A stretch of DNA of 64,000 nt from Bacteroidota bacterium (GTDB lineage: Bacteria; Bacteroidota; Bacteroidia; Bacteroidales; Paludibacteraceae), in contig JAFNAV010000005.1 in NCBI GenBank assembly GCA_017860345.1, forward strand, positions 1-64,000, read 5' to 3'. Below are positions 46,472-61,276 of this stretch, piece by piece; position 1 is the stretch's first letter, and each line of letters opens with the position of its first letter. Under the pieces are notes generated by a model, which worked only from the letters and a program-made list of their open reading frames with translations, made no database searches and was not told where the DNA came from. The translations under genes were made by a program, and so were the position numbers.

Positions 46472-47087
46472 CATTTACAGCCACCCCCAATCCCTCAATA
46501 ACCAAATAACTTAACAACCTAATAACTGAATAACTCAATAACCAAATAACTCAATAACTTAACAACCTAATAACTTAATAACCCAATAACCGAATAACTC
46601 AATCCCCCAATCCTTCAATACAAGTCCACCCTACCTACAACGCACCACCGCCCCACGCCACCATCTCCATCACCCTGACAACAAACCACATACACTTCAC
46701 ACAAAAATTTACAATCCAAACAAAAAACCACCCACACACCTTGTTTAGTAAAAAAACTTTATTAACTTTACAGCCATAATTTAAGAACTTTAAACCCAAA
46801 GAACAAAAGAAGCCGGAAACAGAAGACTAAACCAGCGGAAAAGATGGAAAAATAATCAAATTATAAAGATGAATTTTTGAATTAACCGATTGGATATATG
46901 ACCTTGTTTATTGCGCCTAAACAAATAATGGACTTACAGTAAATTAAATAATTAAGACAAATAACTATAGTCGGTATAGGTGGATATATACAGATGTTAT
47001 GCCCCATTCTAAAAAAGGATAAAGCGACTTATTTGGGTTTATTTAATTTTTGAACAAAATATTCGCCAATCTGAAAACTGAAACAAA
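46472..47087. other. Gene-free left border of the cassette island
   Basis: More than 600 bases with no gene. It holds the AATAAC repeat, then a C-rich, G-poor tract to about 46740 (about five G in 46621-46740), then TTG (46741) with 19 bases to TAACTTTA (46763-46770), a plausible Bacteroidetes promoter facing the island. At 46996-47004 lies GTTATGCCC, the exact reverse complement of the core that ends the first cassette at 47896-47904. The 46961-47005 segment (ATAAC...GTTAT) may be a worn recombination site. Confidence 0.6.
46486..46610. repeat. Degenerate AATAAC tandem repeat
   Basis: About fourteen tandem copies of an 8-9 base unit of the form AATAACYN, with drift (AACAACCT, AATAACTG, AATAACCC). 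Noncoding and almost G-free on the plus strand. Confidence 0.85.
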
Positions 47088-47822
47088 ATGAACGCATATT
47101 TAGATAACAATATTTTCGTTTCCATTGAAGAGAGAGGACTTGATTTTAATGAAATCAAAAAGCATTTACCTGATAATGTTCAATTTGTATACAGCTATGT
47201 TCATATACAAGAGCTATTGGAATCAAAAAGTGACTTTATTAGTTTGAAAAGGAGACGAATTGACACATTGTCAAAAACGACTAATTTCAACTACGTGATT
47301 TCTAATGATGACACAATCGAAGTTATCAATATTCCACCAGACGAAGTTATAAAAATGATAAAAGAATATTCAACAATATTCAATACTACTAGATTCTATG
47401 CAAGTAATTACTCAATAGATAGAGACAAGTTTATGTTAGTATTGGGTGTCGACAAAAACAAAATAAATAATTATAGTTCGAAAGATGTAATTGACCATAT
47501 AAATTTTCTATTAAAAAAACAAGGAGAAATTCTTGATTTTAAGAATATTATTCATCTATCAGGAACCAATCTACATGAAATGATTAGCTCAATTTTTAAT
47601 TTTTTAGACATTGTAGGTTACTGGAGAGATTCACCGACAGACAAGTCTAATTTAGCTAGGATGTACGATGCAGGTCATACTTTTTTTGCTTCGGGTTGTG
47701 AATATTTTATTTCAGAGGACAAAAGAGCTCGTAATAAAGCTAAAGTTGCTTATGAATTTTGTAACGTAAAAACTAAAGTTCTTTCATTAGAAGAACTATT
47801 TTCGTTACCCGTTTTAAACTGA
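47088..47822 (+). CDS. PIN-like domain protein
   Basis: A 244-residue protein. The start MNAYLDNNIF has the first PIN-type Asp (D6), followed by a Glu in QELLES, and the end ARMYDAGHTFFASGCEYFISEDKRARNK carries the later Asp pair, matching PIN-like metal-dependent ribonuclease folds. It is longer than VapC toxins, and no antitoxin gene is adjacent. It is the first gene of the repeat-bounded island and is much more AT-rich than the core genes. RNase activity is an inference. Confidence 0.65.
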   Translation: MNAYLDNNIFVSIEERGLDFNEIKKHLPDNVQFVYSYVHIQELLESKSDFISLKRRRIDTLSKTTNFNYVISNDDTIEVINIPPDEVIKMIKEYSTIFNTTRFYASNYSIDRDKFMLVLGVDKNKINNYSSKDVIDHINFLLKKQGEILDFKNIIHLSGTNLHEMISSIFNFLDIVGYWRDSPTDKSNLARMYDAGHTFFASGCEYFISEDKRARNKAKVAYEFCNVKTKVLSLEELFSLPVLN

Positions 47823-47895
47823 CTTTTGAGAAAGAAAATACAATTAACGATATAGTTTGGTAGATTAAGATTAAGCTAAAACGAAAAAAAAACGA

Positions 47896-48051
47896 GGGCA
47901 TAACACCCGCCTATATCCACAGGCTGGCTGACGTGCATTTCGGCAGTCCCGCTAGGGATTGGGAGCGCTCGCATTAGCTTTGTCGCTCAGCAACAGTGAA
48001 CGCTCCCTCCGCCAAATGGCGGACAAATGCCCATAGCCTCGGTCGTTAGTG
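47896..48051 (+). repeat. attC-like site 1 (long form)
   Basis: Begins with GGGCATAAC (47896-47904) and ends with GTTAGTG (48045-48051). Next to the cores are spacers ACCC and CTCGGTC, then GCCTAT pairing with ATAGC leaving one bulged C, then a large GC-rich hairpin region. It follows the PIN gene stop by 75 bp. Confidence 0.75.
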
Positions 48052-48055
48052 GTAA

Positions 48056-48244
48056 ATGCAAAAAAAGACAGACTTGCTGGTTGAAAAATATTTGATAAAC
48101 TCTCCACTTCTCTCGACTTTCAGACAATTCTGTAACGACAGAATTTACTCATTTTCAGAATTCTGCATAAAGGACAATTCCCCGCAGATTTTCAAAAGAA
48201 AGAATTGGACATTCTGCTTTTCAACCATGACATATAACGACTGA
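48056..48244 (+). CDS. Small ORF of doubtful coding status
   Basis: 62 codons beginning within the conserved end of site 1 (TAAATGCAAAAA). The same ATG context recurs after the site at 53911-54060, so the start may belong to the repeat. No recognised family; no hydrophobic segment. Codons look Cys- and Phe-rich. Could be a remnant. Confidence 0.25.
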   Translation: MQKKTDLLVEKYLINSPLLSTFRQFCNDRIYSFSEFCIKDNSPQIFKRKNWTFCFSTMTYND

Positions 48245-48330
48245 AATTTGTGGAATTGCAAATTGAGAACCAAGGAATGATTTACATAAATGCAAATTAA
48301 CCTGCAGAAAGAACACGAAATTGAAATAAA

Positions 48331-48741
48331 ATGAAAACACATTTTCCAAAACAAATTAATTTTAAAAGTGCCCTAATAATATTTAGCGCATTAACTATCT
48401 TCGCCTTTCTTTCTTGTGATAAAGAGGATATAGATAACAGTAACGATACTAATACAGTAGCAAATGACAATTACTATGTAAAGTATGTTATATCTTCAAT
48501 TTATCCTTACATTTTCAGTAATTGGACAGTTACTACACCAGAAGGAAACTACACAAAAAATAATTATCAAACAAGACATTGGGAACAAACATATGGTCCT
48601 GTAAAAAAAGGATTTAAGTGTGATGTTCAAGTTAAAAACGGACAACCAACTATTGAAATATATGTCTCGAAAAACCAAGAACCGTTTGCTTTAAAAACAA
48701 CTAAGGAAGGTTATTCAGCAACGTATACTATAAATTTTTAA
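48331..48741 (+). CDS. Small lipoprotein of unknown function
   Basis: 136 residues. A hydrophobic N-terminal segment (ALIIFSALTIFAFLSC) ends in a lipobox-like FLSC with Cys at about 33, followed by Asp/Asn-rich residues (KEDIDNSNDTNT), so it is probably an outer-membrane or periplasmic lipoprotein. The rest is short beta strands. No family recognised. It is the sole clear gene of its cassette. Confidence 0.6.
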   Translation: MKTHFPKQINFKSALIIFSALTIFAFLSCDKEDIDNSNDTNTVANDNYYVKYVISSIYPYIFSNWTVTTPEGNYTKNNYQTRHWEQTYGPVKKGFKCDVQVKNGQPTIEIYVSKNQEPFALKTTKEGYSATYTINF

Positions 48742-48830
48742 ATTGAAGACAGAATTTATCATATTACATTCTTTAATTCGCAACAAATTTGGGGGTTGAT
48801 TCAAAGAAATTGGTTAACAAGAGAAAGCTC

Positions 48831-48891
48831 ACTTAACGACTGAAAGAAAATCAAACTACGGCTGCTAACACAAGCCTCGGTCGTTAGGGGG
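48831..48891 (+). repeat. attC-like site 2 (short form)
   Basis: TTAACGACTGA (48833-48843) is the inverse of TCGGTCGTTAG (48880-48890 region), and a second left core, GCTGCTAAC, lies at about 48861-48869. The right end AGCCTCGGTCGTTAGGGG is identical to the other sites. The central hairpin is deleted. Confidence 0.65.
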
Positions 48892-48910
48892 CAAATAAAA
48901 AAAAACAAAG

Positions 48911-49729
48911 ATGAAAATACGAACAATACTTAGTTTTTTACAACAAATACAACGTCTAACAAAAGATGACGACTTTGTATATTTTTTCAGAGGTCATGCA
49001 GACGAAAAGAAATTTGAACTTAAACCATCTATTTACAGAGAAAAAAAGTGGATAGAATCAGAAGATGTCCTATTTAAGGAATTAGTATCTCATAATCCAG
49101 AAGAATTTCGAGAATGTAGAAGCGCCATCGAATATTTGGTGAAAATGCAGCATTATTCACTACCGACAAGACTTTTAGATCTGACCACAAATCCCCTAAT
49201 TGCTTTATATTTTACAGTTTGTGAAATAGACAGATCACATGGAGAAGTAATAGTATTTAGAATTCCAAAAAAAAGTATTAAATATTACGATAGTGATACA
49301 GTCTCTGTGTTGGCTAATATAGCAAAATGCACATCGAATTTCGAGTGTGATGACACGTTGGATAAAACAGTATTCAATAAAGAAGAACATATTGGATATT
49401 TATTGCATCAAATTGGAGATGAGAAACCACATTTTCAACGAATAATTGACCCAGAAGATTTAAATAAAGTACTTTGTGTAAAGGTAAAACAAAGTAATCC
49501 GAGAATTATAAATCAATCAGGAGCTTTTTTGCTATTCGGAATTAACAAAGAAAAAGGTAAAATGGCAGAAGTTGATAGTTCTTGGTTACCTCTTAAGTCT
49601 GACAATAAACTGCTAATATACAATAAAGAAAAAATTAAAACTGACTTGGAGTTAATGGGAATTACAGCGTCATTTGTTTATCCTGAAATGGAGAGTTTTG
49701 CTAAGAAACTTAAGGATATATATAAATAA
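48911..49729 (+). CDS. FRG-domain protein
   Basis: 272 residues. The name-giving motif is at 26-28 (YFFRGHADEKKFELKPSIYR), followed by IEYLVKMQHYSLPTRLLDLTTNPLIALYFTV, a block typical of FRG proteins. The family is common in phage-defence and mobile regions, sometimes as toxin-like proteins; the biochemical role is not established here. It has no signal peptide. It sits alone in its cassette, 20 bp after site 2. Confidence 0.85.
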   Translation: MKIRTILSFLQQIQRLTKDDDFVYFFRGHADEKKFELKPSIYREKKWIESEDVLFKELVSHNPEEFRECRSAIEYLVKMQHYSLPTRLLDLTTNPLIALYFTVCEIDRSHGEVIVFRIPKKSIKYYDSDTVSVLANIAKCTSNFECDDTLDKTVFNKEEHIGYLLHQIGDEKPHFQRIIDPEDLNKVLCVKVKQSNPRIINQSGAFLLFGINKEKGKMAEVDSSWLPLKSDNKLLIYNKEKIKTDLELMGITASFVYPEMESFAKKLKDIYK

Positions 49730-49737
49730 TTATCTAC

Positions 49738-49817
49738 CCCCAACACCCGCTCTATTATCACAAGCTGGCCTCCCGGCAAATCGGGACAAGCTGTGCTTTT
49801 AGCCCCGGTCGTTAGGT
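49738..49817 (+). repeat. attC-like site 3
   Basis: Left core CCCCAAC (49738-49744) and right core GTTAGGT (49811-49817). Central hairpin CCCGG/TCGGG with the repeated ACAAGCTG word. It starts 8 bp past the FRG stop. Confidence 0.78.
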
Positions 49818-49922
49818 GGCGGTGTAAAAAAGGCTGTTTTTGGACTGATAAACATAGAAATAAGAATATATCTAACTGTGACAAGATAAGATTAAAATAA
49901 TTTTTAAAAACCAAATAAATAT

Positions 49923-50864
49923 ATGAATAAATTCGTATTGCTTCCCATTTTTCTGTTCCTGTTTTTTAACGCGAAAGCTCAGGATAGAATTATCAGTATA
50001 AATCATGATACAATTTATTGTTCAATAACATCCATAAACAATGAACGTATCTTATACGAAATAAAAAACAAGAATGGATCAGTAACCGGTAAGTTTATGA
50101 ATTTGTCGCAAGTAGCAGAATACACCCGTTCTCCTCAGGTGAAACCCAATTCGGAAGCATGTAAGATAAAAACTTCAAAACATGTAGATGTACCTGAAAA
50201 CCTGTGGCGCTTGGGTTTGAATATCGGTAGATCGACCATGCCCTGGTATTTTGACAACTTTGAACCTATGTCTGCAATGCAGGATTACTACGATAAGTTA
50301 AAAACCGGATTTCATGTTAACGCCTCTGCGCATTATATGATAAACAGTTCAATTGGCGTGGGAGCGGAATATTCATTTTTCAATACAAACTTTAGCGACG
50401 ATATTCCAACTGAATACTCTACATCAATATTTTATATGGTATCAGAAAAATACAATGAGTATATCCATTATGTTGGGCCATCTGCTCTTTTTGTACAGTA
50501 TCTGGACATACGACGGAAGTTCATTCTTACTGAATCTCTCTCGGCCGGGGCTTTGTTTATACGTTTGGAAGAACAAAGTACTTATCCAAATCTATATAGC
50601 TCCGGTTACACTGACGTTACAAGCAATTCATTACTTACGGGTAATACACTGTCAGCTAAATTGGGACTTAATGCTGAATACAAGCTGTTACCTCATGTTT
50701 CGGTTGGTGTAGGTGGTAGTTTTATTTGGGCTTCGTTAAAGAAAGCGAATATCGAATCAAGAGCGTCGAACAATAGTAGTTCCTCAGCGTACAATCAGGA
50801 ACTTACCAACGCTTTTAACTTGTCCCGCATCGATTATTCACTTGTTTTGCGTTATCAGTTTTAA
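49923..50864 (+). CDS. Outer-membrane beta-barrel protein, unknown function
   Basis: 313 residues with a signal peptide (MNKFVLLPIFLFLFFNAKAQ). After a short beta domain the sequence alternates (AHYMINSSIGVGAEYSF, ETGAL-like LSAGALFIRLEEQ, LLPHVSVGVGGSFIWAS) and ends in YSLVLRYQF, with the terminal Phe typical of outer-membrane barrels. Family not recognised. It is followed 22 bp later by the lipoprotein gene, likely one operon. Confidence 0.7.
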   Translation: MNKFVLLPIFLFLFFNAKAQDRIISINHDTIYCSITSINNERILYEIKNKNGSVTGKFMNLSQVAEYTRSPQVKPNSEACKIKTSKHVDVPENLWRLGLNIGRSTMPWYFDNFEPMSAMQDYYDKLKTGFHVNASAHYMINSSIGVGAEYSFFNTNFSDDIPTEYSTSIFYMVSEKYNEYIHYVGPSALFVQYLDIRRKFILTESLSAGALFIRLEEQSTYPNLYSSGYTDVTSNSLLTGNTLSAKLGLNAEYKLLPHVSVGVGGSFIWASLKKANIESRASNNSSSSAYNQELTNAFNLSRIDYSLVLRYQF

Positions 50865-50886
50865 TTCAACACTAACAAATTCTATT

Positions 50887-52854
50887 ATGCAGCCTATTAT
50901 TAAAAATACAATATTATTTACATTAGTCTGTTTGTTAACGGCTTGTACGAATGATTTTCTGAACGAAAATCTTAATTCTGTTTCTTTACCTGTTGGTGTA
51001 TCAAATATTTATATTTCACCCGACTGGCAAAGTTCAAACCGAATGTTTAAGTTGCCTTCGCTGAAAGATGCTGATTATGAAATTGTATCGAAGCCATCGT
51101 GGCTTACTGTGGGTTCCATGAGCGGACATTTGTCAGATAGTATTGCTATGATTCAATGCTCTGCAACAAAGAATTCCGCTTTCAGTTCAGTTGGTATTTA
51201 CATGGATTATATGACTGTAAGTGCAAAAGAAAAGAGCTACAAAGTTCCGGTTGCCTATATTACTGAAGGAAATCCTACTCTGCAGGTGCAAAGTAGTGTT
51301 ACACTATCTTATAGCGCTTATGGCTATCCAACGTTACAAATTCAGAATAGCGGCCCAGGCATTTTAATCTGGAATATCGTTAGTATGCCCGATTGGTTGA
51401 CGGTTGATACAGCCCGGCTTGAATCAAATGGGTTATATATTTCTCAATATTATTCATATAACATACCTCTTAAAATTATACCCGGCAAAATCACTTCGGG
51501 TAGTTTAACAGGAAAGATTGTTCTTTCTACAAATGATAAGGAGCATTCAACTGTATCGGTAAATGTTACAACCAACCTGGGTACACCTGAATTGAGCATA
51601 TATACAAATACTATTAATTTCTCTACAACAGAAACGGCAAAATCCTTATCATTTGTTAATTATGGAAGTGGCATACTGATATGGGAGTTTAAAGATATTC
51701 CCGCATGGTTAACCATTACGCCATCAAGCGGCATGTATAGTCCTTTTACTTCATATGCTAATATAGTCTTTAGCTGCGATCGGACAAAACTCTCGGCTGG
51801 ACAAAATACAGCTATAGTAAATCTGACAACAAACGACAACTCCCATTTGTCGTACAGCATTACGGTTACAGCTGTGGCGCCCGGAAATAACGAGAACATA
51901 CGTTCAATTGATGGAAATATTATAGATGCTGTCTTCAATAAAAACACAAACACATTGTATTATGTAACCAGCGCACCAAACAAGTTAATAGCTTACGATG
52001 TAACAACAAAAACTATTTTACATGAAATTAGTTTAAGCAAGGCTCCAACCTGTTTTGCTATTTCGGAAGACTGGACCAAAGCAGCTGTAGGACACAATGG
52101 ATACTTAAGTGCAATTAATTTATCCAACAATACTGTAACTGCTCTCTACAACTCCGATTACTCAGTACGTGATATTGCCTGGGCTGAAAACGATTGGTTT
52201 AGCTACACACAAACCGGTGGTAGTTTCTCAGCTCTGCACTGGATAGATACAGCTACCGGTGCTGTTTACGATGACACCAATAAGTCTAGTCTGGATGGCG
52301 GTTCAATGATAAAAAAAGTACCCAGTCAGCCTTATCTTATAGCTACACGAGGAAGTACTTCGCCCAGCGGTTTTTTTTCATATAGCATTGCAAGCAAGAG
52401 CAAAAAAAGCTATTCGCATATGGACTTATCTAATTTCTGGTTTTCGGAAGATGGTCAATATATTTATGGCCGAAGCAGAGATATTTACAGAACAACCAGT
52501 TCAACAGGATCGACAGATACATTTGATGCCGACATCAATTCGATTGGTAAAATCATTTCCTCAAGCAACTATGGAATCAATTTCATTTATCACAGCAATC
52601 ATTTCTTATGGGTCATTCTAAATGATTCTTATACTTCCGATACCTTTACCAGTATTTATCAAATTGAAGATAATGACTATACAATAGTAAAGAAATACAC
52701 ATATGATACGCTCTACCAACCTGCTGCGCAAACCACCTCCTTTAGCGTAAATGCAAATTATGTTTTTGCCAACAATGAAGGAACAGAAATTTCGGTTTTA
52801 TGTAAAGGTGTCAGCAACGACACCTGGATAATGCAGTTTATTCCTGTAAAATAA
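50887..52854 (+). CDS. Lipoprotein with BACON-like repeats and C-terminal propeller
   Basis: 655 residues from the ATG at 50887 (MQPIIKNTILFTLVCLLTAC); the lipobox LTAC puts the Cys at 20. At least three BACON-like beta-sandwich repeats follow, each with a WLTV/WLTI core (PSWLTVGSMSG, PDWLTVDTARL, PAWLTITPSSG), then a beta-propeller-like half (KLIAYDVTTKTILHEISLS). BACON domains in Bacteroidetes usually bind carbohydrate or mucin. It pairs with the barrel protein upstream; both have more moderate base composition than the other cassette genes. Confidence 0.72.
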   Translation: MQPIIKNTILFTLVCLLTACTNDFLNENLNSVSLPVGVSNIYISPDWQSSNRMFKLPSLKDADYEIVSKPSWLTVGSMSGHLSDSIAMIQCSATKNSAFSSVGIYMDYMTVSAKEKSYKVPVAYITEGNPTLQVQSSVTLSYSAYGYPTLQIQNSGPGILIWNIVSMPDWLTVDTARLESNGLYISQYYSYNIPLKIIPGKITSGSLTGKIVLSTNDKEHSTVSVNVTTNLGTPELSIYTNTINFSTTETAKSLSFVNYGSGILIWEFKDIPAWLTITPSSGMYSPFTSYANIVFSCDRTKLSAGQNTAIVNLTTNDNSHLSYSITVTAVAPGNNENIRSIDGNIIDAVFNKNTNTLYYVTSAPNKLIAYDVTTKTILHEISLSKAPTCFAISEDWTKAAVGHNGYLSAINLSNNTVTALYNSDYSVRDIAWAENDWFSYTQTGGSFSALHWIDTATGAVYDDTNKSSLDGGSMIKKVPSQPYLIATRGSTSPSGFFSYSIASKSKKSYSHMDLSNFWFSEDGQYIYGRSRDIYRTTSSTGSTDTFDADINSIGKIISSSNYGINFIYHSNHFLWVILNDSYTSDTFTSIYQIEDNDYTIVKKYTYDTLYQPAAQTTSFSVNANYVFANNEGTEISVLCKGVSNDTWIMQFIPVK

Positions 52855-52974
52855 TTATGCATGGTAGAGCTTGCTTTGCATATTTGAAAAGTGATGGGCT
52901 GAAAATAGCCAAACAAGATTCTTAGTCAGCAACAATAAAGAATGAAACAGGTAAAGAAGACACAAACACCGACT

Positions 52975-53058
52975 GCCTAACACACGCTCTATTATCACAA
53001 GCTGGCCGCCCCCCGATAAGTCGGGACAAGCTGTGGCACTTAGCCTCGGGCGTTAGGG
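52975..53058 (+). repeat. attC-like site 4
   Basis: Left core GCCTAAC (52975-52981) matches RYYYAAC and right core GTTAGGG (53052-53058) matches the complement. Inner hairpin CCCGA/TCGGG. Spacers ACACGCTC and AGCCTCGG. Confidence 0.82.
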
Positions 53059-53090
53059 GTGAATTTAAGAAAGAAAAAACAAATTATCAA

Positions 53091-53906
53091 ATGATTAAAA
53101 CAACTTTTGGACTTATTGGACTTCTCATTCTAACAGGTTGCTCTCAACTGAACAACTTTAAAAATCCTCATATTCGAACAGAAAATGCGGAGCTTGTTAG
53201 AATTGCAAAATTCAATGAGATGAAAGAATCTGTTTGCGAATTAGTCTATGTTGGTGAAATTGCTGATACCGCAAGAATTGACACTTTAAAGACTCAAGAT
53301 TACTTTAAATTCGACTTTAAAACCATTTTAAAAAACAAGAGATTTCCAATAAAAATTTACGTTGATGTGAATCAACGTTTAGCATACGACTTAGAGAAAT
53401 TATCTATTCCTCCTGTGCCAATTCTGCTAGACAGTATTAACATACTCTTTGACTCTATTGAAAACAAAAAACAACTTGAACTTTGGGAAAACAGACAACG
53501 AAATTATGTTGAAGCAATTCCAGTTTCAATTATAAATCTTGGAAAGTCGACAATTTGGTTAGTTCAACAAGATTTAAAGATACAAATGATTCAGGAAGCG
53601 AAAGACATAAATGGAAATTGGAAACCCATAGAATTTTGGAATTATAGCAGGTGTGGACTTAGTTATGGTAATTTGATTCTAAGATCTAACGAAATTGCGA
53701 TATTTAAAATTTTAAGATATTCAGGAGATTTTCAGACAGAAATACGATTAAAAATAAAAAGCGGAAAATACACTTATTATTCTGACCCATTTAATGGAAG
53801 TGTAAATCAGAGTCAATTTGAAATTCCGAAAGAACTGTTTAATGACAGAGAGTTGACGAAAGTTGAACGAGAAAAAATTATTGAAACAATGTTTTTAAAC
53901 GACTAA
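53091..53906 (+). CDS. Lipoprotein of unknown function
   Basis: 271 residues. The signal ends LILTGCSQL with Cys at about 17. The rest has repeated beta segments and a long middle helix (NKKQLELWENRQRNYVEA). No family recognised. It begins 32 bp after site 4 and ends 5 bp before site 5. Confidence 0.62.
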   Translation: MIKTTFGLIGLLILTGCSQLNNFKNPHIRTENAELVRIAKFNEMKESVCELVYVGEIADTARIDTLKTQDYFKFDFKTILKNKRFPIKIYVDVNQRLAYDLEKLSIPPVPILLDSINILFDSIENKKQLELWENRQRNYVEAIPVSIINLGKSTIWLVQQDLKIQMIQEAKDINGNWKPIEFWNYSRCGLSYGNLILRSNEIAIFKILRYSGDFQTEIRLKIKSGKYTYYSDPFNGSVNQSQFEIPKELFNDRELTKVEREKIIETMFLND

Positions 53907-53910
53907 AAAC

Positions 53911-54060
53911 TACCGACACGTATGTTCATAGGCTGGCAGATGTGCATTTCACAATCCCGATAGAGCTCGGGAGCGCCCGCATTAGCTACGCTGATTTTCG
54001 ATTCTCTTTGTCTGCCGCAGCCAGCTGGTGGACAAATACCCATAGCCTCGGTCGTTAGTG
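53911..54060 (+). repeat. attC-like site 5 (long form)
   Basis: Close relative of site 1: shares CATAGCCTCGGTCGTTAGTG at the right end and the inner GCATTAGCT word. Right core GTTAGTG (54054-54060). The left core is worn (ACCGAC, 53912-53917). Confidence 0.7.
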
Positions 54061-54088
54061 GCAAATGCAAAAAAACAACAAGATATAT

Positions 54089-54547
54089 ATGAAAATGAGA
54101 AGGATAATAATAATTTTAAGTGTATTTTTACTTGGTTGTACAAGTACAAAAAAAGTGTTTTCATCACTTGAAAAATCTGTAGAAGACAACTACGGTTATT
54201 CAATAAATAATCCTATTTTGATTGGAGAATTTAGTAATTGGCAAAAGAATGCAGATTTGTCTCTATTTTATATTTCTAAGCTGACATACAACCAAAGACC
54301 TTTGCAATATATTTTACATGCGACAGTCGAAAAGCCTATGAATCAACCAAGAAAAAAGAAATCCATACCTTTAAGATTTGGAGTTCCAAGTAGTTTAGAA
54401 GGAAAGTTTCTTGACTTATATGTCGTTGTGCCTATAGGTACGACAGATACACTAAAATTATATTTTGACGAAGAAATAAAAGGAACATTGAAAATACCTA
54501 AGGGATTCGAGTTTGACATTAATCAATCTAATAATATTTATAGATAA
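54089..54547 (+). CDS. Small lipoprotein, unknown function
   Basis: 152 residues from the ATG at 54089. The upstream ATG at 54065 lies in the repeat-like AAATGCAAAAAA context after site 5, so a later start is preferred. Signal IIIILSVFLLGCTSTKK, lipobox Cys near 16. Predicted beta-rich. No family recognised. The next gene begins 20 bp past its stop. Confidence 0.58.
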   Translation: MKMRRIIIILSVFLLGCTSTKKVFSSLEKSVEDNYGYSINNPILIGEFSNWQKNADLSLFYISKLTYNQRPLQYILHATVEKPMNQPRKKKSIPLRFGVPSSLEGKFLDLYVVVPIGTTDTLKLYFDEEIKGTLKIPKGFEFDINQSNNIYR

Positions 54548-54566
54548 ATTATATCAAAGACACCTT

Positions 54567-54944
54567 ATGATTTCAGATAGATTATTAAGAATTTTGAAAG
54601 TTTGCTTTTGGTTGAATATAGCGATATTTACAGGAATGATTATTTTAAATATTGTGACTATAGTTTCTGCAGTTAGTGGAGAAATTTATCAGCCAAACAT
54701 ATTTATTGGAATCTTAATTGGAATCTTTGAATTACCAGTTTTTTTTCTTTTTGGTTATTCCGTATATTTTTTCTACAAATACTACAAATACAGCAAATAT
54801 GGAATATATTTCTTGTTTTTTCATTTACTTTATGCGAATATTTACTTCTATAAGGTAATCTGGAAAAGAAAACGAGAGTTAGTGAACTCATACGAAAGCG
54901 AGCAGGTATTAGGAAATAAAATCTTTATAGAAACAAAAGAGTAA
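54567..54944 (+). CDS. Small membrane protein
   Basis: 125 residues from the ATG at 54567 (MISDRLLRILKVC); an in-frame start at 54513 overlaps the preceding gene. Three to four hydrophobic segments (FWLNIAIFTGMIILNIVTIV, FIGILIGIFELPVFFLFGYSVYFF, IYFLFFHLLYANIYF). Possibly translationally coupled to the lipoprotein. No family recognised. Confidence 0.6.
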   Translation: MISDRLLRILKVCFWLNIAIFTGMIILNIVTIVSAVSGEIYQPNIFIGILIGIFELPVFFLFGYSVYFFYKYYKYSKYGIYFLFFHLLYANIYFYKVIWKRKRELVNSYESEQVLGNKIFIETKE

Positions 54945-54964
54945 TTTAAACGAAAAAAAACAGC

Positions 54965-55047
54965 CCCTAACACACGCTCTATGTTCACAAGCTGGCTGAC
55001 TCCCGATAAGTCGGGACAAGCTGTCCGCTTAGCCTCGGTCGTCAGAC
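54965..55047 (+). repeat. attC-like site 6
   Basis: Left core CCCTAAC (54965-54971); right core changed to GTCAGAC (55041-55047), a degenerate form. Interior as in sites 4 and 7. The damaged right core may make this site inactive. Confidence 0.78.
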
Positions 55048-55064
55048 TGTGCAAAAACTATAAT

Positions 55065-55185
55065 GAAATGGCTGAGAATGGCGCAGATGAATTTTTTCTC
55101 AGTCAGGTATCGGAATATATAAATGGTGATGGGAGTTTTTGCGCAACTTGTCCTGTATTATTTATCGGGAGACTCTCGTTAGAAG
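55065..55185 (+). repeat. Right half of a second-class site
   Basis: GAGTTTTTGCGCA and CTCTCGTTAGAAG (core at 55178-55185) resemble the site at 56813-56859. No gene is present between site 6 and this end, so the unit looks like an empty cassette. Confidence 0.5.
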
Positions 55186-55214
55186 GCTAGTTTAAAAAAA
55201 AGACATTGACAAGT

Positions 55215-55679
55215 ATGAAAAATAGATTAATAATTGGAGTAACATTAACCACAATAATTATAACAACAATGGGATTTTTTGACTTATTTGCCACAAAACA
55301 GAACTCAGACAAAAAGTATGTAAATGAGGAAACATACAGAAAAAACAAAGAGAATCAACTAAACATGACACCAAAAATTCTCAAGCAACTTAGAGACTTA
55401 GGAGTATCTGAATCAAAAGAATTAAAACTTGAGTATTTTTTTTACACTAATACTGTTGACAAGGCCAAAAAACTTGCAGAAGAAATTCAAAAATTGAATT
55501 ATAAAGTTGAATATCACATATCTGCTGGAGACAAAAAGCTTTTTGTCATAACCGGTTGGACAACAAAAATGATTATGTCTGACACCTCAGTAATTGAGTG
55601 GACAAAGAAAATGTGCGACTTAGGTTATCAATTTGATTGCGACTATGACGGTTGGGGGACAGAACCTAACCAAGAATGA
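55215..55679 (+). CDS. RraB-like (ribonuclease E inhibitor) protein
   Basis: 154 residues from the ATG at 55215. An N-terminal hydrophobic segment (LIIGVTLTTIIITTMGFFDLF) is followed by a domain with KLEYFFYTNTVDKAKKLAEE-type start and CDYDGWGT end, the hallmark YDGWG of the RraB family. RraB binds RNase E in proteobacteria; a target here is not known, and the membrane segment makes the role uncertain. It is alone in its cassette. Confidence 0.68.
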   Translation: MKNRLIIGVTLTTIIITTMGFFDLFATKQNSDKKYVNEETYRKNKENQLNMTPKILKQLRDLGVSESKELKLEYFFYTNTVDKAKKLAEEIQKLNYKVEYHISAGDKKLFVITGWTTKMIMSDTSVIEWTKKMCDLGYQFDCDYDGWGTEPNQE

Positions 55680-55693
55680 GATAAAAAACCAGC

Positions 55694-55776
55694 CCCTAAC
55701 ACACGCTCTATTATCACAAGCTGGCCACCTCCCGGCAATTCGGGACAAGCTGGCCGCTTAGCCTTGGTCGTTAGGG
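55694..55776 (+). repeat. attC-like site 7
   Basis: Perfect outer pair CCCTAAC (55694-55700) and GTTAGGG (55770-55776). Inner pairs AAGC/GCTT, GCC/GGC and TCCCG/CGGGA. The best preserved member. It starts 15 bp after the RraB-like stop. Confidence 0.85.
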
Positions 55777-55821
55777 ATGAGTTTAAGAAAGAAGACCTAT
55801 ATCATTATAAATCTTGAGAAC

Positions 55822-56298
55822 ATGAAAAAAATAATTTTGATTATTGTAGTTTCTGAAATCCTATTCATGAGCATTTTGGGAAGGAAAATAGATTACTATT
55901 TACTGAAAAAAAATAATTATCCAATTTTTTCATTTCCATTAGCTATGTGTAGAGATGGTGGAACTACAATTTTTTATGGTACAACTTACAAAATTATAGC
56001 TCTTCAATCTATATATAGTGATTCTATAGGAACTTTTGGTTATAAAACAGGAACAATTTTATTAAATTGGTTTCAAAAAATTGATTTAAATAGATATTTA
56101 AATGATAAAAACACTTCAAAATTTATAGCAGAAAACAAATATGAAGATATGAATAATGGATTTAATGTTTTAGTTTCATTTTTAATCCATTTGCAAATAT
56201 TTGTTTGTATAATTATTTTAATAAAAAGAAAGAACAAAAAAAAAGAAGATTCCATCACATCAAGCAACTTCTCAATAAGTAAAAAACAAATAAAGTGA
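55822..56298 (+). CDS. Small membrane protein, unknown function
   Basis: 158 residues from the ATG at 55822. Helices near the N-terminus (IILIIVVSEILFMSILG) and near the end (NVLVSFLIHLQIFVCIIILI), then a charged Lys-rich tail. No family recognised; very AT-rich. It follows site 7. Confidence 0.55.
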   Translation: MKKIILIIVVSEILFMSILGRKIDYYLLKKNNYPIFSFPLAMCRDGGTTIFYGTTYKIIALQSIYSDSIGTFGYKTGTILLNWFQKIDLNRYLNDKNTSKFIAENKYEDMNNGFNVLVSFLIHLQIFVCIIILIKRKNKKKEDSITSSNFSISKKQIK

Positions 56299-56363
56299 AC
56301 GCGCTTGCTGGCGAAGAACTTCCAAATCAGTAACCTGACGATTCAGTAAAAAAATCATTGACA

Positions 56364-56804
56364 ATGGACAAGTCCAGAAAGATACATAATAAAGAAAACC
56401 CAACTCTAAGAATTGAAAGTATAAAGCTAACAGTAACCGAACTACGTAGTAATTATTAGTTTAGCGAAAAATCAAACAGAATTTCAATTCAAACGAGTCT
56501 GTTTTACAACAATCCAAATTTATATCAAAGTATTATTGGGAAAGTAATACAAAAAAACATTCAAAACATTGAGAACAAAAAAGAACACGGAAGTATTCTG
56601 TATTTTGAATTCGAAAATGATTTTAAAAATAAGGAGTTCATAGAAGGATTATTGTGGGGTGAAAAGAAACCTACAAAAAACCACACTGAAACCTTTATCT
56701 CAAAAGGCAAATATCTATTTATAATAAGCTTTAACAACAGAAACACAATCAGCCCCGAAATATTTTTCCGCGAACCGAAGCTATTGAAGCAAGAGATGAG
56801 ATAA
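56364..56804 (+). pseudogene. Orphan gene interrupted by an amber codon
   Basis: One frame of 147 codons from ATG 56364 (MDKSRKIHNKENP) to TAA 56802-56804, with a single TAG at 56457-56459 (codon 32). The frame continues cleanly after it (FSEKSNRISIQTSLFYNN, ending LLKQEMR). The length divides exactly by three, so a nonsense mutation in a former gene is the simplest reading. Family not recognised. It lies within the cassette that ends at 56850. Confidence 0.6.
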
Positions 56805-56812
56805 AAACAAAA

Positions 56813-56859
56813 AATAATGAGAGCAAAGGTGGTTTTTGCGCAGGCTCTCGTTATATGCC
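56813..56859 (+). repeat. Second-class site S1
   Basis: AATAATGAGAGC (56813-56824) pairs with GCTCTCGTTATAT; right end GTTATATGCC (56850-56859). A near-copy of its left half lies at 60222. Confidence 0.65.
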
Positions 56860-56905
56860 ATTTTAGAACATACTACAACCAAATAAACTTTCAGATATTT
56901 GCAGA

Positions 56906-57604
56906 ATGAATGATAATGATACAAAAAGACTTTCAAGACTTATAGCAATCTTAACTCAGTTGCAAACAAGACGTCTTGTAACTTCTACTAAACTTGCTCA
57001 AAAATTTGGAGTTAGCACAAGAACAATTTATAGAGATTTAAAAGCATTAGAACAAGCAGGTGTTCCAATTTTGACAGAAGACGGTAAAGGTTATTCATTG
57101 ATGGAAGGTTACAGAATTCCACCAATTATGTTTACCGAAAACCAAGCAAACGCATTAATCCTTGCTGAACAATTGGTTTTAAAAAATAAAGACAGCTCAT
57201 TAATTGATGATTATGCCGAAGCCATTGACAAAATAAAAGCCGTTTTAAGACAAACTGAGAAAGACAAAGCGAACTTACTATCATTAAGAACAAAATTTGC
57301 AAAACTTGATAACTACGAAATTAAGAGCAACATATTATCTACTTTACAAATTGCAATTACCAATTTTTATCTTGCAAATTTTCAATACATCAACGCAGAA
57401 AATAAAGAGAGTAAAAGAACTGTTGAGCCTTTTGCTTTATTAAATATTTCGGAAGGTTGGTTATTGGTTGCCTATTGCCGTCTGCGAAATGAATTTCGTT
57501 ATTTTCGGTTAGACAGAATTCAAAAACTGCAAGTTCAACAAGAAAATTTCACACCTCATAAAATGACGTTACAAGATTTTTTTGAAAAATATCACAACCA
57601 TTAG
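56906..57604 (+). CDS. YafY-type HTH-WYL transcriptional regulator
   Basis: 232 residues. N-terminal winged HTH of the DeoR/HTH_11 type (LIAILTQLQTRRLVTSTKLAQKFGVSTRTIYRDL, about residues 11-44), helix linker, then a C-terminal WYL domain with LLNISEGWLLVAYCRLRNEFRYFRLDRI. WYL domains sense nucleic acid or small ligands and are common in defence and stress regulators. It is first in a block with DUF1761, YdeI, HxlR and nitroreductase genes. Confidence 0.88.
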   Translation: MNDNDTKRLSRLIAILTQLQTRRLVTSTKLAQKFGVSTRTIYRDLKALEQAGVPILTEDGKGYSLMEGYRIPPIMFTENQANALILAEQLVLKNKDSSLIDDYAEAIDKIKAVLRQTEKDKANLLSLRTKFAKLDNYEIKSNILSTLQIAITNFYLANFQYINAENKESKRTVEPFALLNISEGWLLVAYCRLRNEFRYFRLDRIQKLQVQQENFTPHKMTLQDFFEKYHNH

Positions 57605-57613
57605 AGATACCCT

Positions 57614-57629
57614 TGACATACAGTTGTCA
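57614..57629. promoter_or_regulatory. Possible operator
   Basis: TGACA, six bases, TGTCA: a dyad in the leader of the DUF1761 gene, 50 bp before its start and 10 bp after the WYL regulator stop. TACTTTTG at 57641-57648 fits a -7 element. Regulation by the neighbouring regulator is only a guess. Confidence 0.35.
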
Positions 57630-57677
57630 GTAGCCCATTTTACTTTTGTGGCACAATCAATAAAAAAACAAAAAAAT

Positions 57678-58100
57678 ATGCTACAAAAAATTTCAAAAAT
57701 CAGTTGGATAGGAGTATTCCTCTCTTTAGTATTTTACTCTTTTCTCGGTTGGCTTTGGTTCACTGTATTGTTCCCAAACCAATATGCTGGTACATTAGAT
57801 AAATTGGGAATGATGCCTGCAAAGCCAGACCCTATTTATTTTTATGGACCAGTTTTGGCAATTTTGCCTACAATAATTACAACAGCTTTGTTGATGGTAG
57901 TGCTAAATATCAACAAAAGAAAAGCAGCAATTGAATTTGCCTTAGTTATAGGCTTGGGTTTTTTGGTTGCCAATACATTTAATATTGCCATTAACCCCAA
58001 TATTCCACATCCAATGACTTATGGATTGTTAGTTGGTGGATTTCAATTGATTAGTGTATTAGTATCTTGCCTTATTTTGCAAGCAATGCGTAAAAAATGA
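57678..58100 (+). CDS. DUF1761-like membrane protein
   Basis: 140 residues from the ATG at 57678 (MLQKISKISWIGVFLS); an earlier in-frame start at 57582 overlaps the regulator. Four hydrophobic helices; the layout (FLGWLWFTVLFP, GPVLAILPTIITTALL, then GLGFLVANTFNIAINPN) fits DUF1761. Function unknown. Its stop overlaps the next start (ATGA). Confidence 0.72.
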   Translation: MLQKISKISWIGVFLSLVFYSFLGWLWFTVLFPNQYAGTLDKLGMMPAKPDPIYFYGPVLAILPTIITTALLMVVLNINKRKAAIEFALVIGLGFLVANTFNIAINPNIPHPMTYGLLVGGFQLISVLVSCLILQAMRKK

Positions 58101-58696
58101 ACAGACAAGCAATAGAAGAATTCTACCCTGAGTCCAAACAGCATTTGAGAGAATGGTTACAAAAAAATCATTTAATAAAAGAGGCTGTTTGGCTTATTTT
58201 TTATAAAAAACATACAGGAAAACCTTCAGTTGCTTGGACTGATGCAGTTGACGAAGCTCTATGTTTTGGCTGGATAGATAGCAAAGGGGAAACCATAGAC
58301 AAAGATACATTCAGACAATATTTCTGTAAACGCAAGGCAACAAGCACCTGGAGTAAAATAAACAAACAAAAAATTGACACCTTAACTGCAAAAGGATTAA
58401 TGGCAGAGGCAGGTTTTAAGGTAATTGAAATTGCCAAGCAAAATGGCTCCTGGACTATTTTGGACGAAGCAGAGGAACTGAGTATACCAGTAGAATTGGA
58501 AAAAGCTTTCGAAAAATTTGAGAATTCAAAAGACTACTTTTCATCATTAAGTAAAAGCAAGAAAAAGGTTTTACTATATTGGATTGCTCTTGCTAAAACA
58601 GAAACGACACGACAAAAACGAATTTTAGAAATTGCAGAAAACGCTTCGCAAAAACAACAGCCGAAACAATTTAGACCGAAAGAAAAAGGTATTTAA
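58097..58696 (+). CDS. YdeI/OmpD-associated family protein
   Basis: 199 residues, soluble. The start LREWLQKNHLIKEAVWLIFYKKHTGKPS, then EALCFGWIDSKGETIDKDTFRQYFCKRKATSTWSKINKQK (conserved FGWIDS and RKATSTWSKIN), identifies the YdeI-like family, linked in some bacteria to bacteriocin or peptide resistance. Its start overlaps the preceding stop by four bases, so translation is likely coupled. Confidence 0.85.
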   Translation: MNRQAIEEFYPESKQHLREWLQKNHLIKEAVWLIFYKKHTGKPSVAWTDAVDEALCFGWIDSKGETIDKDTFRQYFCKRKATSTWSKINKQKIDTLTAKGLMAEAGFKVIEIAKQNGSWTILDEAEELSIPVELEKAFEKFENSKDYFSSLSKSKKKVLLYWIALAKTETTRQKRILEIAENASQKQQPKQFRPKEKGI

Positions 58697-58760
58697 TCAA
58701 GTCGAATTAGGTTTTGTTGCAAAACACCAACAGATTCACATCCCAGTCACAAAACGATAA

Positions 58761-59117
58761 TTATTTTCCAATTATTTTCTTTCGGTGCTTGGCACCCCAT
58801 GCTGAGAGATTTTTGATTACAGTTTGTAATTCCTGACCATATTCAGTGAGTTCATACTGAACAGTAATAGGCTGAGTATCCAAAACTGTTCTGGTTACAA
58901 GTTGATTTACTTCCATATCTTTCAACTCCTTACTTAACATTTTATTTGATATTCCATCAACATCAGCCAATATATCAGAAAATCGTCTTTTGTTACGATA
59001 ACATAATACCGCAAGTATGGATATTCGCCATTTCCCGTTTAATACATCCATAGCATCATGTACTGCCATTATTTGCATTTTACAGTTTTCTTTACTTGGA
59101 AAATTTTTGTTTGCCAT
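58761..59117 (-). CDS. HxlR-family transcriptional regulator
   Basis: 118 residues with the compact HxlR winged HTH: MDVLNGKWRISILAVLCYRNKRRFSDILADVDGISNKMLSKELKDMEVNQLVTR, then VQYELTEYGQEL. Such regulators often control divergently transcribed oxidoreductases, as here with the nitroreductase 102 bp away. It is the only clearly minus-strand gene of the island. Confidence 0.9.
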   Translation of the reverse strand: MANKNFPSKENCKMQIMAVHDAMDVLNGKWRISILAVLCYRNKRRFSDILADVDGISNKMLSKELKDMEVNQLVTRTVLDTQPITVQYELTEYGQELQTVIKNLSAWGAKHRKKIIGK

Positions 59118-59119
59118 TT

Positions 59120-59133
59120 GTTACTTAGTTAAC
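59120..59133. promoter_or_regulatory. Operator-like repeat, copy 1
   Basis: GTTACTTAGTTAAC, close to the perfect palindrome at 59155. It overlaps the start of the HxlR message, fitting autoregulation. Confidence 0.55.
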
Positions 59134-59154
59134 TGAAGGTAACCATTACATTTC

Positions 59155-59167
59155 GTTACTTAGTAAC
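59155..59167. promoter_or_regulatory. Operator-like palindrome, copy 2
   Basis: GTTACTTAGTAAC is a perfect dyad around the central T. It lies 20 bases before TAATTTTG (59188-59195), the -7 element of the nitroreductase, so binding would block or activate that promoter. Confidence 0.65.
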
Positions 59168-59219
59168 AAAAGTAAACAAATATTTCCTAATTTTGCACAA
59201 AAAATAAACAATAAAAAGT

Positions 59220-59867
59220 ATGGCAATATTAGAAGAATTAAAGTGGCGGTATGCTACTAAGAAAATGAATGGGCAAATTGTTCCACAAGACAAAATAGAT
59301 TACATATTAGAATCGGCAAGATTAGCACCTTCTTCCTCCGGATTACAACCCTATCGCATTTTTGTAATAAGCAACCGAAACAAGTTGCAAGAAATCAAAG
59401 AAAATGTTTTCAAAGATTTCCCTTTCAATCAAGGACAGATAAATGATTGTTCACACTTATTGGTTTGGGCATCTTGGGACAATTACACGCCCGAAAGAAT
59501 AAGAAAAACGCTATTAAATACCTCAAGACAAAGAGGCTTACCTGACTTGTCGTCAGAAGATTACCAAAAGAGACTTTGGTCTTTTTTTGAACCCAAAGGA
59601 GATGAATGGCATAAAAACCATTGTGCAAAACAAGCATACATTTCATTCGGCATGGCTATGGTAGCAGCAGCTGAACAAAAGGTTGATGCAACGCCAATGG
59701 AAGGTTTCAACTTTAATAAAATGGATAAGATTCTTGGACTAAAAAAATTAGGATTAAAAAGTATAGTATCACTACCTCTTGGCTACAGAGACGAAGAAGG
59801 TGATTGGCTTATTAAATTGCAAAAAGTAAGAACCCCAAAAGATGAATTTATAACTGTTATAGCTTGA
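59220..59867 (+). CDS. NAD(P)H-dependent nitroreductase-like oxidoreductase
   Basis: 215 residues, FMN-binding nitroreductase fold (NfsB-like). The N-terminus WRYATKKMNGQIVPQDKIDYILESARLAPSSSGLQPYRIFVI and the C-terminal LGLKSIVSLPLGYRDEEGDW are family typical. It reduces nitro or quinone compounds with NAD(P)H. It is divergent from hxlR with shared operators, suggesting induction by an electrophile. Confidence 0.9.
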   Translation: MAILEELKWRYATKKMNGQIVPQDKIDYILESARLAPSSSGLQPYRIFVISNRNKLQEIKENVFKDFPFNQGQINDCSHLLVWASWDNYTPERIRKTLLNTSRQRGLPDLSSEDYQKRLWSFFEPKGDEWHKNHCAKQAYISFGMAMVAAAEQKVDATPMEGFNFNKMDKILGLKKLGLKSIVSLPLGYRDEEGDWLIKLQKVRTPKDEFITVIA

Positions 59868-59872
59868 AAAAA

Positions 59873-60009
59873 GGCATATAACAACGGTTTGGCAAAGGTG
59901 GCGGAGTAGAACTTCGGATGACAAGTTTTTCGCAAATTTGAAGTCCGTGCTTTGTACGAAGATTTGTGGTAAAATCACCACCTTCGCCAAGCCGCAAAAC
60001 GTTAGCAGC
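59873..60009 (+). repeat. attC-like site S2
   Basis: Begins GGCATATAAC (59873-59882) and ends GTTAGCAGC (60001-60009). Inner arms CGGTTTGGCAAAGGTGG and CCACCTTCGCCAAGCCG are complementary with two wobbles. The left core is the exact reverse complement of GTTATATGCC at 56850-56859. Confidence 0.82.
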
Positions 60010-60035
60010 AATCAAAAAAATCCCTTTGAGTTACG

Positions 60036-60090
60036 AAGCTAACGACAAAAAGTGAATATTGAAAATCAAAGACCTATGTGGTCGTTAGTC
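60036..60090 (+). repeat. Small attC-like site S2b
   Basis: GCTAACGAC (60038-60046) against GTCGTTAGTC (60081-60090), eight of nine paired. It lies 29 bp after S2, so the unit between them is empty. Confidence 0.6.
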
Positions 60091-60221
60091 AGAATCTTAA
60101 AAAAAGGAAAACCCATTTACAGCTTGAAATAGCTCACATTATCAATATCGGATTTCTTGTAGCGGGTGAACTCGACGACTTTCTGACAAGTTGTGGAGAC
60201 AAAGTAAGAGCAAAATCAAAA

Positions 60222-60250
60222 AATAATGAGAGCGAAGGTAGTTTTTGTGC
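60222..60250 (+). repeat. Half-site S3
   Basis: Matches 56813-56841 (S1) with a few substitutions over AATAATGAGAGC and the GTTTTTG word; the right arm has decayed. Marks a former boundary. Confidence 0.6.
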
Positions 60251-60343
60251 AAACTCACAAAGATGTACATAGCGACAAGAAAGCTTAAAATGAAACAAAA
60301 AAAATAGAGATTAAAGATAAATATAAAATTTAAATTCAACGTA

Positions 60344-61072
60344 ATGAGAGTTGCAGTAGCCCAGATAAAGGCGATAAAAGGAAATGTTGATAAAAACATT
60401 GAAAATCATTTAAGGTGGATAAAACAAGCAATTCGGAATAATGCGGATATGCTGGTTTTTCCTGAGTTATCAGTAACTGGGTACGAACCTGATTTAGCGG
60501 TGAATCTTGCAACCAATCAAGACGACTCGAGATTGGATGAGATTCAAAGTTTAAGTGATAAAAATGGAATCACAATTGGAGTTGGATTACCAACTAAAAA
60601 CGAGAGTGATACACTTGTAAGTATGATAATTATTCAGCCTCACAAGGAGCGGATAACCTATTCAAAACAGTATTTATATCCACCGGAAGAACCAATTTTC
60701 AAAGCCGGTAAAAATCCTCTTGTCTTAAATTTTGAAACAGAAATTGTATCTCCTGCAATTTGTTACGAAACGTCGAATAAAGCGCATTGCGAGTTTGCAA
60801 AACGAAACAAGGCGACCGTTTATATAGCAAGTGTCTTAAGCTCAATTAATGGAATTGATACTGAACTAAAAAAACTGTCTGACATAGCTAAAAACAATAA
60901 TTTGGTAACATTTATGGCAAATTATGTTGGTGAATCAGGAGGGTATCAATGCGCAGGAAAATCTTCTGTTTGGGACACAACTGGAGAACTGATTGGGCAA
61001 CTTGACAGCGAAACAGAGGGAATACTAATTTACGACACTCAGACAAAAGAAATTGTAAAGGGAACAAAATAA
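60344..61072 (+). CDS. Carbon-nitrogen hydrolase (nitrilase superfamily)
   Basis: 242 residues with the complete catalytic triad: Glu41 (FPELSVTGYEP), Lys108 (TYSKQYLYPPEE) and Cys140 (PAICYETS). Short length and single domain fit branch of amidase/carbamoylase-like members acting on small amides. Substrate unknown. It is the last gene of the island; site 8 begins within 10 bp of its stop. Confidence 0.88.
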   Translation: MRVAVAQIKAIKGNVDKNIENHLRWIKQAIRNNADMLVFPELSVTGYEPDLAVNLATNQDDSRLDEIQSLSDKNGITIGVGLPTKNESDTLVSMIIIQPHKERITYSKQYLYPPEEPIFKAGKNPLVLNFETEIVSPAICYETSNKAHCEFAKRNKATVYIASVLSSINGIDTELKKLSDIAKNNNLVTFMANYVGESGGYQCAGKSSVWDTTGELIGQLDSETEGILIYDTQTKEIVKGTK

Positions 61073-61075
61073 ACT

Positions 61076-61276
61076 GCCCAGAACTCAAACCTATGTTCAC
61101 AAGCTGGCTGACTCCCGATAAGTCGGGACAAGCTGTGCACTTGGCAGTCCCGATAGAGCACGGGAGCGTCCGCATTAGCTTCGCTGATTTTCGATTTACT
61201 TTATCCGCCGTGGCGGACAGTGAACGCACTCTCCGCCAGCTGGCGGACTAATGCCCTTAGCCCCGGTGGTTATGGG
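61076..61276 (+). repeat. attC-like site 8, hybrid form
   Basis: The left half (CTATGTTCACAAGCTGGCTG and the TCCCGATAAGTCGGGA hairpin) matches the short sites 4, 6 and 7; the right half (GGCAGTCCC, GCATTAGCT, GGCGGACTAATGCCC) matches long sites 1 and 5. Right core GTTATGG (61269-61275). About 200 bp, the longest of the set. Confidence 0.75.

Follow-up and report, generated by a model that had tools for sequence, protein, structure and literature searches.

The 64,000-nucleotide stretch analysed here (the window; positions 1 to 64,000 of contig JAFNAV010000005.1, assembly GCA_017860345.1) comes from a Bacteroidota bacterium of the family Paludibacteraceae, and contains a long series of short gene units that end in imperfect palindromes resembling the attC sites of integrons. 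The question raised by this locus is whether such an array can be an integron when no integrase gene lies beside it, and which enzyme would have served it. An earlier note on this DNA had offered two answers, a CALIN (a cluster of attC sites lacking an integron integrase) or a Bacteroidota system in which attC-like sites serve another recombinase. Both turn out to hold together, and the note had missed that the leader of the array is a recombinase remnant followed by an attI-like site. The window very probably holds an integrase-less cassette array belonging to a gene-capture system of Bacteroidota that is integron-like in its working. This conclusion is drawn from the anatomy of the array, the homology of its leader, the pairing of each site with the start of its own cassette, an asymmetry between the strands, and a separate recombinase clade. 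The system works like an integron, yet falls outside the IntI family.

An integron attC site has an R box, unpaired spacers, an L box with a mismatch or bulge, and a G/TT recombination point, and integron cassettes lie in one orientation. The array in the window spans 46996-61271 and has nine attC-like sites, several of them decayed, rather than the dozen or so first counted. The palindromes at the ends of the units are real, as are their unequal spacers and bulged second box. Their arms are confirmed by direct repeats, and by a 17-nucleotide (nt) 3'-arm motif, composed from the window's own sites, which with up to 4 mismatches occurs at 8 places in the array, from 48033 to 61257, and nowhere else on either strand of the window. 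The 16-nt 5'-arm motif is weaker in specificity, with 4 matches in the array and 6 elsewhere, each of the latter with 4 mismatches. One site, at 59880-60003, has a different sequence from the other eight. The near-uniform orientation noticed earlier also holds, since 15 of the 16 open reading frames (ORFs) accepted as genes are on the plus strand; three units carry more than one gene (2, 2 and 5). No match was returned when the array was searched against Rfam. A CALIN has at least two attC sites and no integrase nearby, and that is what is found in the window, provided that its sites count as attC.

The first cassette is preceded by a leader of about 300 bases. At the DNA level, it shares homology with the 3' portion of a recombinase gene, together with the site behind its stop codon, in related genomes. 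The draft genome contains eight copies of the leader including that in the window, some of them partial. Six copies share the end GATG and differ after TT(A/G), which locates the recombination point there; two (C34 and C52c) are without that end. Leader matches were found in 10 of 150 genomes of the family (the window's own included), mostly to one stretch of the leader, and four of them fall within recombinase hits (two in genome G024, one each in G011 and G035). A tblastn comparison of nine recombinases with eight stretches of the window's genome found the XerC gene alone, so that the leader is visible only at the DNA level. As the earlier note had advised, an integrase was sought elsewhere in the genome: two profile searches of the 86%-complete assembly found no intact recombinase of this type, XerC- and XerD-type genes being the sole matches, and no search for other recombinases was made. 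As a side observation, a truncated recombinase leader has here been multiplied within one genome, with copies on contigs C82, C109, C11, C34, C36 and C52.

In relatives the system is intact. A tyrosine recombinase gene with HARP-like N-terminal repeats is transcribed towards the array, and is followed by the attI-like site and the cassettes. G024, of the same family but a different genus, has two arrays on one contig, one headed by an intact recombinase of 586 residues and the second by a remnant of 131 residues; each array includes an attI-like site as well as several cassettes with arms matching the own start. Intact recombinases are about 455-590 residues long, and the attI-like site lies about 30-450 nt past the stop codon. 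A scan of 84,980 species genomes yielded 329 relatives, of which the best 80 were analysed; 39 of these 80 loci have at least 1500 nt past the recombinase. Among these 39, 26 are listed with putative attI-like inverted repeats and a G/TT between the recombinase stop and the first cassette. When 17 loci were read past the stop by eye, an attI-like site was seen in four long ones (G034, G094, G112 and G114), and was not seen in the long G140 locus nor in 12 others.

A match between the outer arm of a site and the start of its own cassette, which the earlier note overlooked, is predicted for a site that forms on an excised circle. In the 39 loci, sites were picked by their core only (AAC to GTT, preferred lengths, paired arms), the outer bases being left unused, which gave 98 sites behind recombinases as against 11 in permuted sequence. 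Across 59 consecutive pairs, an average of 4.25 of the outer six bases agree with the start of their own cassette and 2.41 with the next start, compared to 2.21 (standard deviation 0.16) for a random start. The own start is the better match in 43 pairs and the next in 10, with 6 ties. The outer 5' arm is a perfect match to its own cassette start in 34 of 59 pairs, and to the neighbouring 3' arm in 1 of 59. A separate test for chains of such units, at a score of at least 2.6, was passed by 12 of 39 loci, 4 of 195 shuffles and none of 35 upstream controls. A first chain detector had been dropped as over-permissive, shuffles scoring about as well as real sequence; a second-box requirement was added, and then the core-only site definition. 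On a canonical cyanobacterial IntI plasmid the own-start rule was seen, in a three-unit chain with a doubtful last site and no shuffle run, and no chain was found in a class 1 integron plasmid stretch.

Within the window the features are as follows, all on the plus strand except where stated.

46690-46995: leader, the decayed 3' end of a HARP-type tyrosine recombinase gene with an attI-like site at its end (from copies in the genome and homology to relatives)
46996-46998: GTT of the attI-like recombination point (G/TT) and start of cassette 1 (from the divergence of leader copies)
47088-47822: cassette 1 ORF, 244 residues, no Pfam match
47902-48047: attC-like site 1, whose R'' GGGCATAAC matches its own cassette start GTTATGCCC at 6 of 6 positions
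48331-48741: cassette 2 ORF, 136 residues, no Pfam match
48867-48885: site 2, hairpin lost, AAC to GTT being 16 nt
48911-49729: cassette 3 ORF, FRG domain (Pfam), matching the candidate phage-defence family PDC-S15 at 3.7e-101
49742-49813: attC-like site 3 (3'-arm motif)
49923-52854: cassette 4, two ORFs, one with a sub-threshold beta-barrel match and one a BACON_2 protein
52979-53054: attC-like site 4 (3'-arm motif)
53091-53906: cassette 5 ORF, 271 residues, no Pfam match
53915-54056: attC-like site 5, GAC in place of AAC, R'' degenerate
54065-54944: cassette 6, two small ORFs, no Pfam match
54969-55043: attC-like site 6, GTC core in place of GTT
55206-55679: cassette 7 ORF, RraB domain
55698-55772: attC-like site 7 (3'-arm motif, folding)
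55825-56298: unit 8 ORF, no Pfam match; no recognisable attC-like end was found in this unit (55770-56850)
56850-60001: composite unit with WYL regulator, DUF1761, OmdA, HxlR (minus strand) and nitroreductase genes (Pfam); its start GTTATATGC matches its own R'' GCATATAAC at 6 of 6 positions
59880-60003: attC-like site closing the composite unit, AAC to GTT being 121 nt, the usual length in relatives
60344-61072: last cassette ORF, carbon-nitrogen hydrolase
61082-61271: ninth and last attC-like site, end of the array (3'-arm motif)

Two other kinds of repeat were noted. AATAACT-like 8-nt tandem repeats lie at 46488-46615, between htpG and the leader, and a second palindrome-like type (TGAGAGC...) has two copies in the array, at 56803-56850 (start of the composite unit) and 60212-60256.

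For 14 cassettes on three contigs of the window's genome, the match to the own start averages 3.93, compared to 3.07 for the next, with 4 perfect matches versus 0 (permutation 0.004). This count is made without unit 8 of the window, the fourth unit of C36, and the units on C34, C52, C11 and C5. Sequence is also shared between genera. A stretch of 599 nt that is 95.2% identical between two genera (L043 9639-10237 and L075 11845-12442) stands first in the C52 array of the window's genome and far down an array of G024, and its right border is clean.

The sites also have preferred lengths and a preferred strand. The lengths of the 98 core-defined sites (loci L135-L214) fall into clusters at 119-124 and 183-189 nt, and autocorrelation of the inner part has peaks at 18-19 and 37 nt, with a lesser peak at 7-8. 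In 71 of the 98, the bottom strand has the lower folding energy, the means being -20.2 kcal/mol for the bottom and -19.0 for the top strand. Non-Watson-Crick stem columns point the same way: in 120 the pair is a G.T wobble on the bottom strand alone, in 32 on the top alone. When five sites were folded as top and as bottom strand, the bottom was lower in three and the top in one, with one tie. Folding of the bottom strand, a check that the earlier note had advised, was carried out for two sites of the window: 55693-55778 gave z -4.2 on the bottom and -2.6 on the top strand, and for 52974-53060 the fold was no better than shuffles on either strand (z -0.6 and -0.5). We consider that the attC-like sites probably fold from one DNA strand, the bottom one.

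The recombinase itself was analysed using an alignment of 44 proteins. Pfam HARP (PF07443) was matched in 22 of the 44 at E values up to 0.1, the best being 1.5e-7; the member chosen for modelling is among those unmatched. Its predicted structure has three beta-beta-alpha-beta-beta-alpha modules ahead of the recombinase fold (predicted local distance difference test, pLDDT, 83.9; predicted template modelling score, pTM, 0.44). The integron integrase 2a3v has the lowest E-value among solved structures, both by sequence and by fold, with XerA next by fold. The insertion that forms the additional domain of IntI is absent from four HARP-type recombinases and present in three IntI in a 12-row alignment, and two HARP-type proteins score 218 and 222 bits against the TIGR02249 cut-off of 265. 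The recombinase core does pass the XerA-like profile NF040815 (cut-off 220), with 225 bits for G024 and 233 for L137. In the final tree, made without rows L070, L104, L245 and L101, the HARP group has support of 95/87, three IntI 100/100 and the Xer pair 100/99, with HARP and Xer apart, on an unresolved backbone with several long branches; the first tree gave the HARP group 97/67. HARP-type recombinases do not group with XerC and XerD. On the sequences compared, the HARP-type recombinase is thus a clade of its own, outside the IntI family, and the tree may be read either as a sister lineage without the insertion or as an independent invention.

The resemblance to known systems is therefore mixed. 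The integrase, the attI, the one-orientation cassettes, the order of R box, spacers and L box, the G/TT point, the own-start pairing and the bottom-strand folding bias are all shared with IntI integrons, as these are generally understood. Unlike those, the system has a recombinase without the IntI insertion, with HARP-like repeats and below the TIGR02249 cut-off; its gene lies upstream of the array and co-oriented with the cassettes; and its sites favour about 121 or 185 nt, with the internal periodicity given above. The window array is like a CALIN in having no integrase gene nearby, but it opens with an attI-like site and a recombinase remnant, and its sites belong to another recombinase family. 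XerA-like recombinases share the core; the HARP type differs in its link to attI and cassette arrays and in its N-terminal repeats. The HARP domain belongs to SMARCAL1-type proteins; here, unlike in those, it is repeated ahead of a tyrosine recombinase.

The most serious alternative is that this is an ordinary CALIN, a canonical IntI integron with divergent attC sites that has lost its integrase. Site anatomy and own-start pairing are typical of integron cassettes, and 5 of the 295 genomes of the order carry true IntI genes that score above the cut-off. Nevertheless, the gene remnant heading the array is of the HARP type, in the rows compared the insertion is missing from the intact recombinases, which group as a clade of their own, and arrays beside the five IntI genes gave chance-like chains alone, three of these contigs being shorter than 4.2 kb. 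We therefore regard a lost IntI as unlikely. In the sections of the literature that bear on this point, the IntI insertion is termed essential to integron function, and Xer proteins are described as resolving chromosome dimers (PMC8138268); IntI have been selected by the additional domain (PMC2426708). Bacteroidota are named among integron carriers (PMC8618304, PMC9668308), while the relevant part of the IntegronFinder 2.0 survey gives for Bacteroidetes only In0 elements and then one complete integron, in Salinibacter ruber (PMC9024848). The available text of the paper presenting attC models for 11 taxa has zero occurrences of the word stem Bacteroid- (PMC8352920). No description of a HARP-type integron-like recombinase family was found in the literature searched, whose scope did not extend to preprints and most subscription journals.

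On the basis of these observations, we hypothesise that the HARP-type recombinase encoded directly upstream of the array would act on the attI-like site and the attC-like sites, and that cassettes would excise as circles at G/TT and re-insert at attI. Excision as circles would explain the paired outer arms. We propose that the HARP repeats help to fold or hold the hairpin. In the window, the recombinase gene has decayed to its 3' end and attI, leaving the array stranded unless an enzyme acts in trans.

Several observations weigh against this interpretation. In the relatives, 25 of the 59 pairs are imperfect, and the next start beats the own start in 10; moreover the preferred site lengths were read off own-start chains in the same loci, so that the choice of sites is partly dependent, although the outer bases were still unused. 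A chain score of 1.6 is reached by 23 of 39 loci, but also by 33 of 195 shuffles and 3 upstream controls. In the window, 2 of 9 cassettes tested match their own start perfectly; the next start is better for window units 7 and 10 and for C36_2 and C109_2 (four of the 14), and in the C52 array the first cassette fails to match its own start. For the cassette shared with G024, the left border lies about 145 nt inside the G024 unit, and the hairpin interiors differ. In 27 of 98 sites it is the top strand that has the lower fold, and 116 of the 120 bottom-strand wobbles are of a single pair type and may stem from a few conserved columns. Fold TM-scores are low (0.27-0.31 on the query), the best being to an archaeal Xer, and the displayed fold hits do not account for the N-terminal modules. 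Finally, because the genome is 86% complete, an integrase may be absent from the assembly.

Two further explanations fare worse than a lost IntI. The sites could be palindromes like miniature inverted-repeat transposable elements (MITEs), inserting behind genes without any exchange of cassettes. They are indeed repetitive, stretches of about 150-210 nt around them being about 87-93% alike between some genera, and the array contains the other palindromes noted above; but nothing in a MITE would lead it to match the start of the unit ahead of it, and the single orientation, the attI-like start and the linked recombinase also argue against it, so that we consider it very improbable. Transcription terminators or mRNA-stabilising hairpins, similar through shared ancestry, would suit sites that lie at gene 3' ends and can fold, but even a secondary terminator role leaves the outer arms unexplained, and own-start pairing, bottom-strand asymmetry and preferred lengths make this more improbable still.

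The distribution of the capture system was also considered. Among the best 80 of 329 relatives, the titles are all of Bacteroidota or its subgroups, for example Paludibacter, Spirosoma, Arcicella, Algoriphagus, Belliella, Pedobacter, Solitalea, Chitinophaga and Saprospiraceae, except for one metagenome-assembled genome labelled Bifidobacterium breve (L181), which carries a HARP-type recombinase and is probably mislabelled or contaminated. The window's genus includes genomes labelled Paludibacter sp.; contigs of G034 and G094 show complete identity to L137 and L140 across 8.5 and 12 kb. In the family, recombinase matches at 1e-40 occur in 22 of 150 genomes, nearly full-length in nine; in the phylum, 13 of 395 genomes match at 1e-110, and three alone reach into the N-terminal part. 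Among viral contigs, 55 relatives were found, with zero matches beginning before residue 209 of 549. The system is sporadic, though spread widely across Bacteroidota. A promoter inside the recombinase gene was considered and rejected, TTG-TAnnTTT being too rare at the matching place (4 of 52 genes, versus 15 of 1600 random windows). At the locus itself, the flanking genes of the array are on different contigs in all 7 congeners having both, of 30 checked. The leader is absent behind htpG in 11 congeners, in flanks of up to 1.5 kb (less than 100 nt in one), and no close strain carrying the same array was found.

We lean towards a broader reading, that this is a second kind of integron in Bacteroidota, sporadic in many orders, with a recombinase that lacks the IntI insertion and whose HARP repeats would fold or anneal single-stranded sites. 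Definitions based on IntI would pass such a system by, and for this reason the phylum has looked nearly integron-free. Integrons are the best known gene-capture device of bacteria. If the broader reading is true, Bacteroidota carry a reservoir of mobile cassettes yet to be mapped, which includes at least one candidate phage-defence gene, and the recognition of folded single strands can be asked of an independent enzyme.

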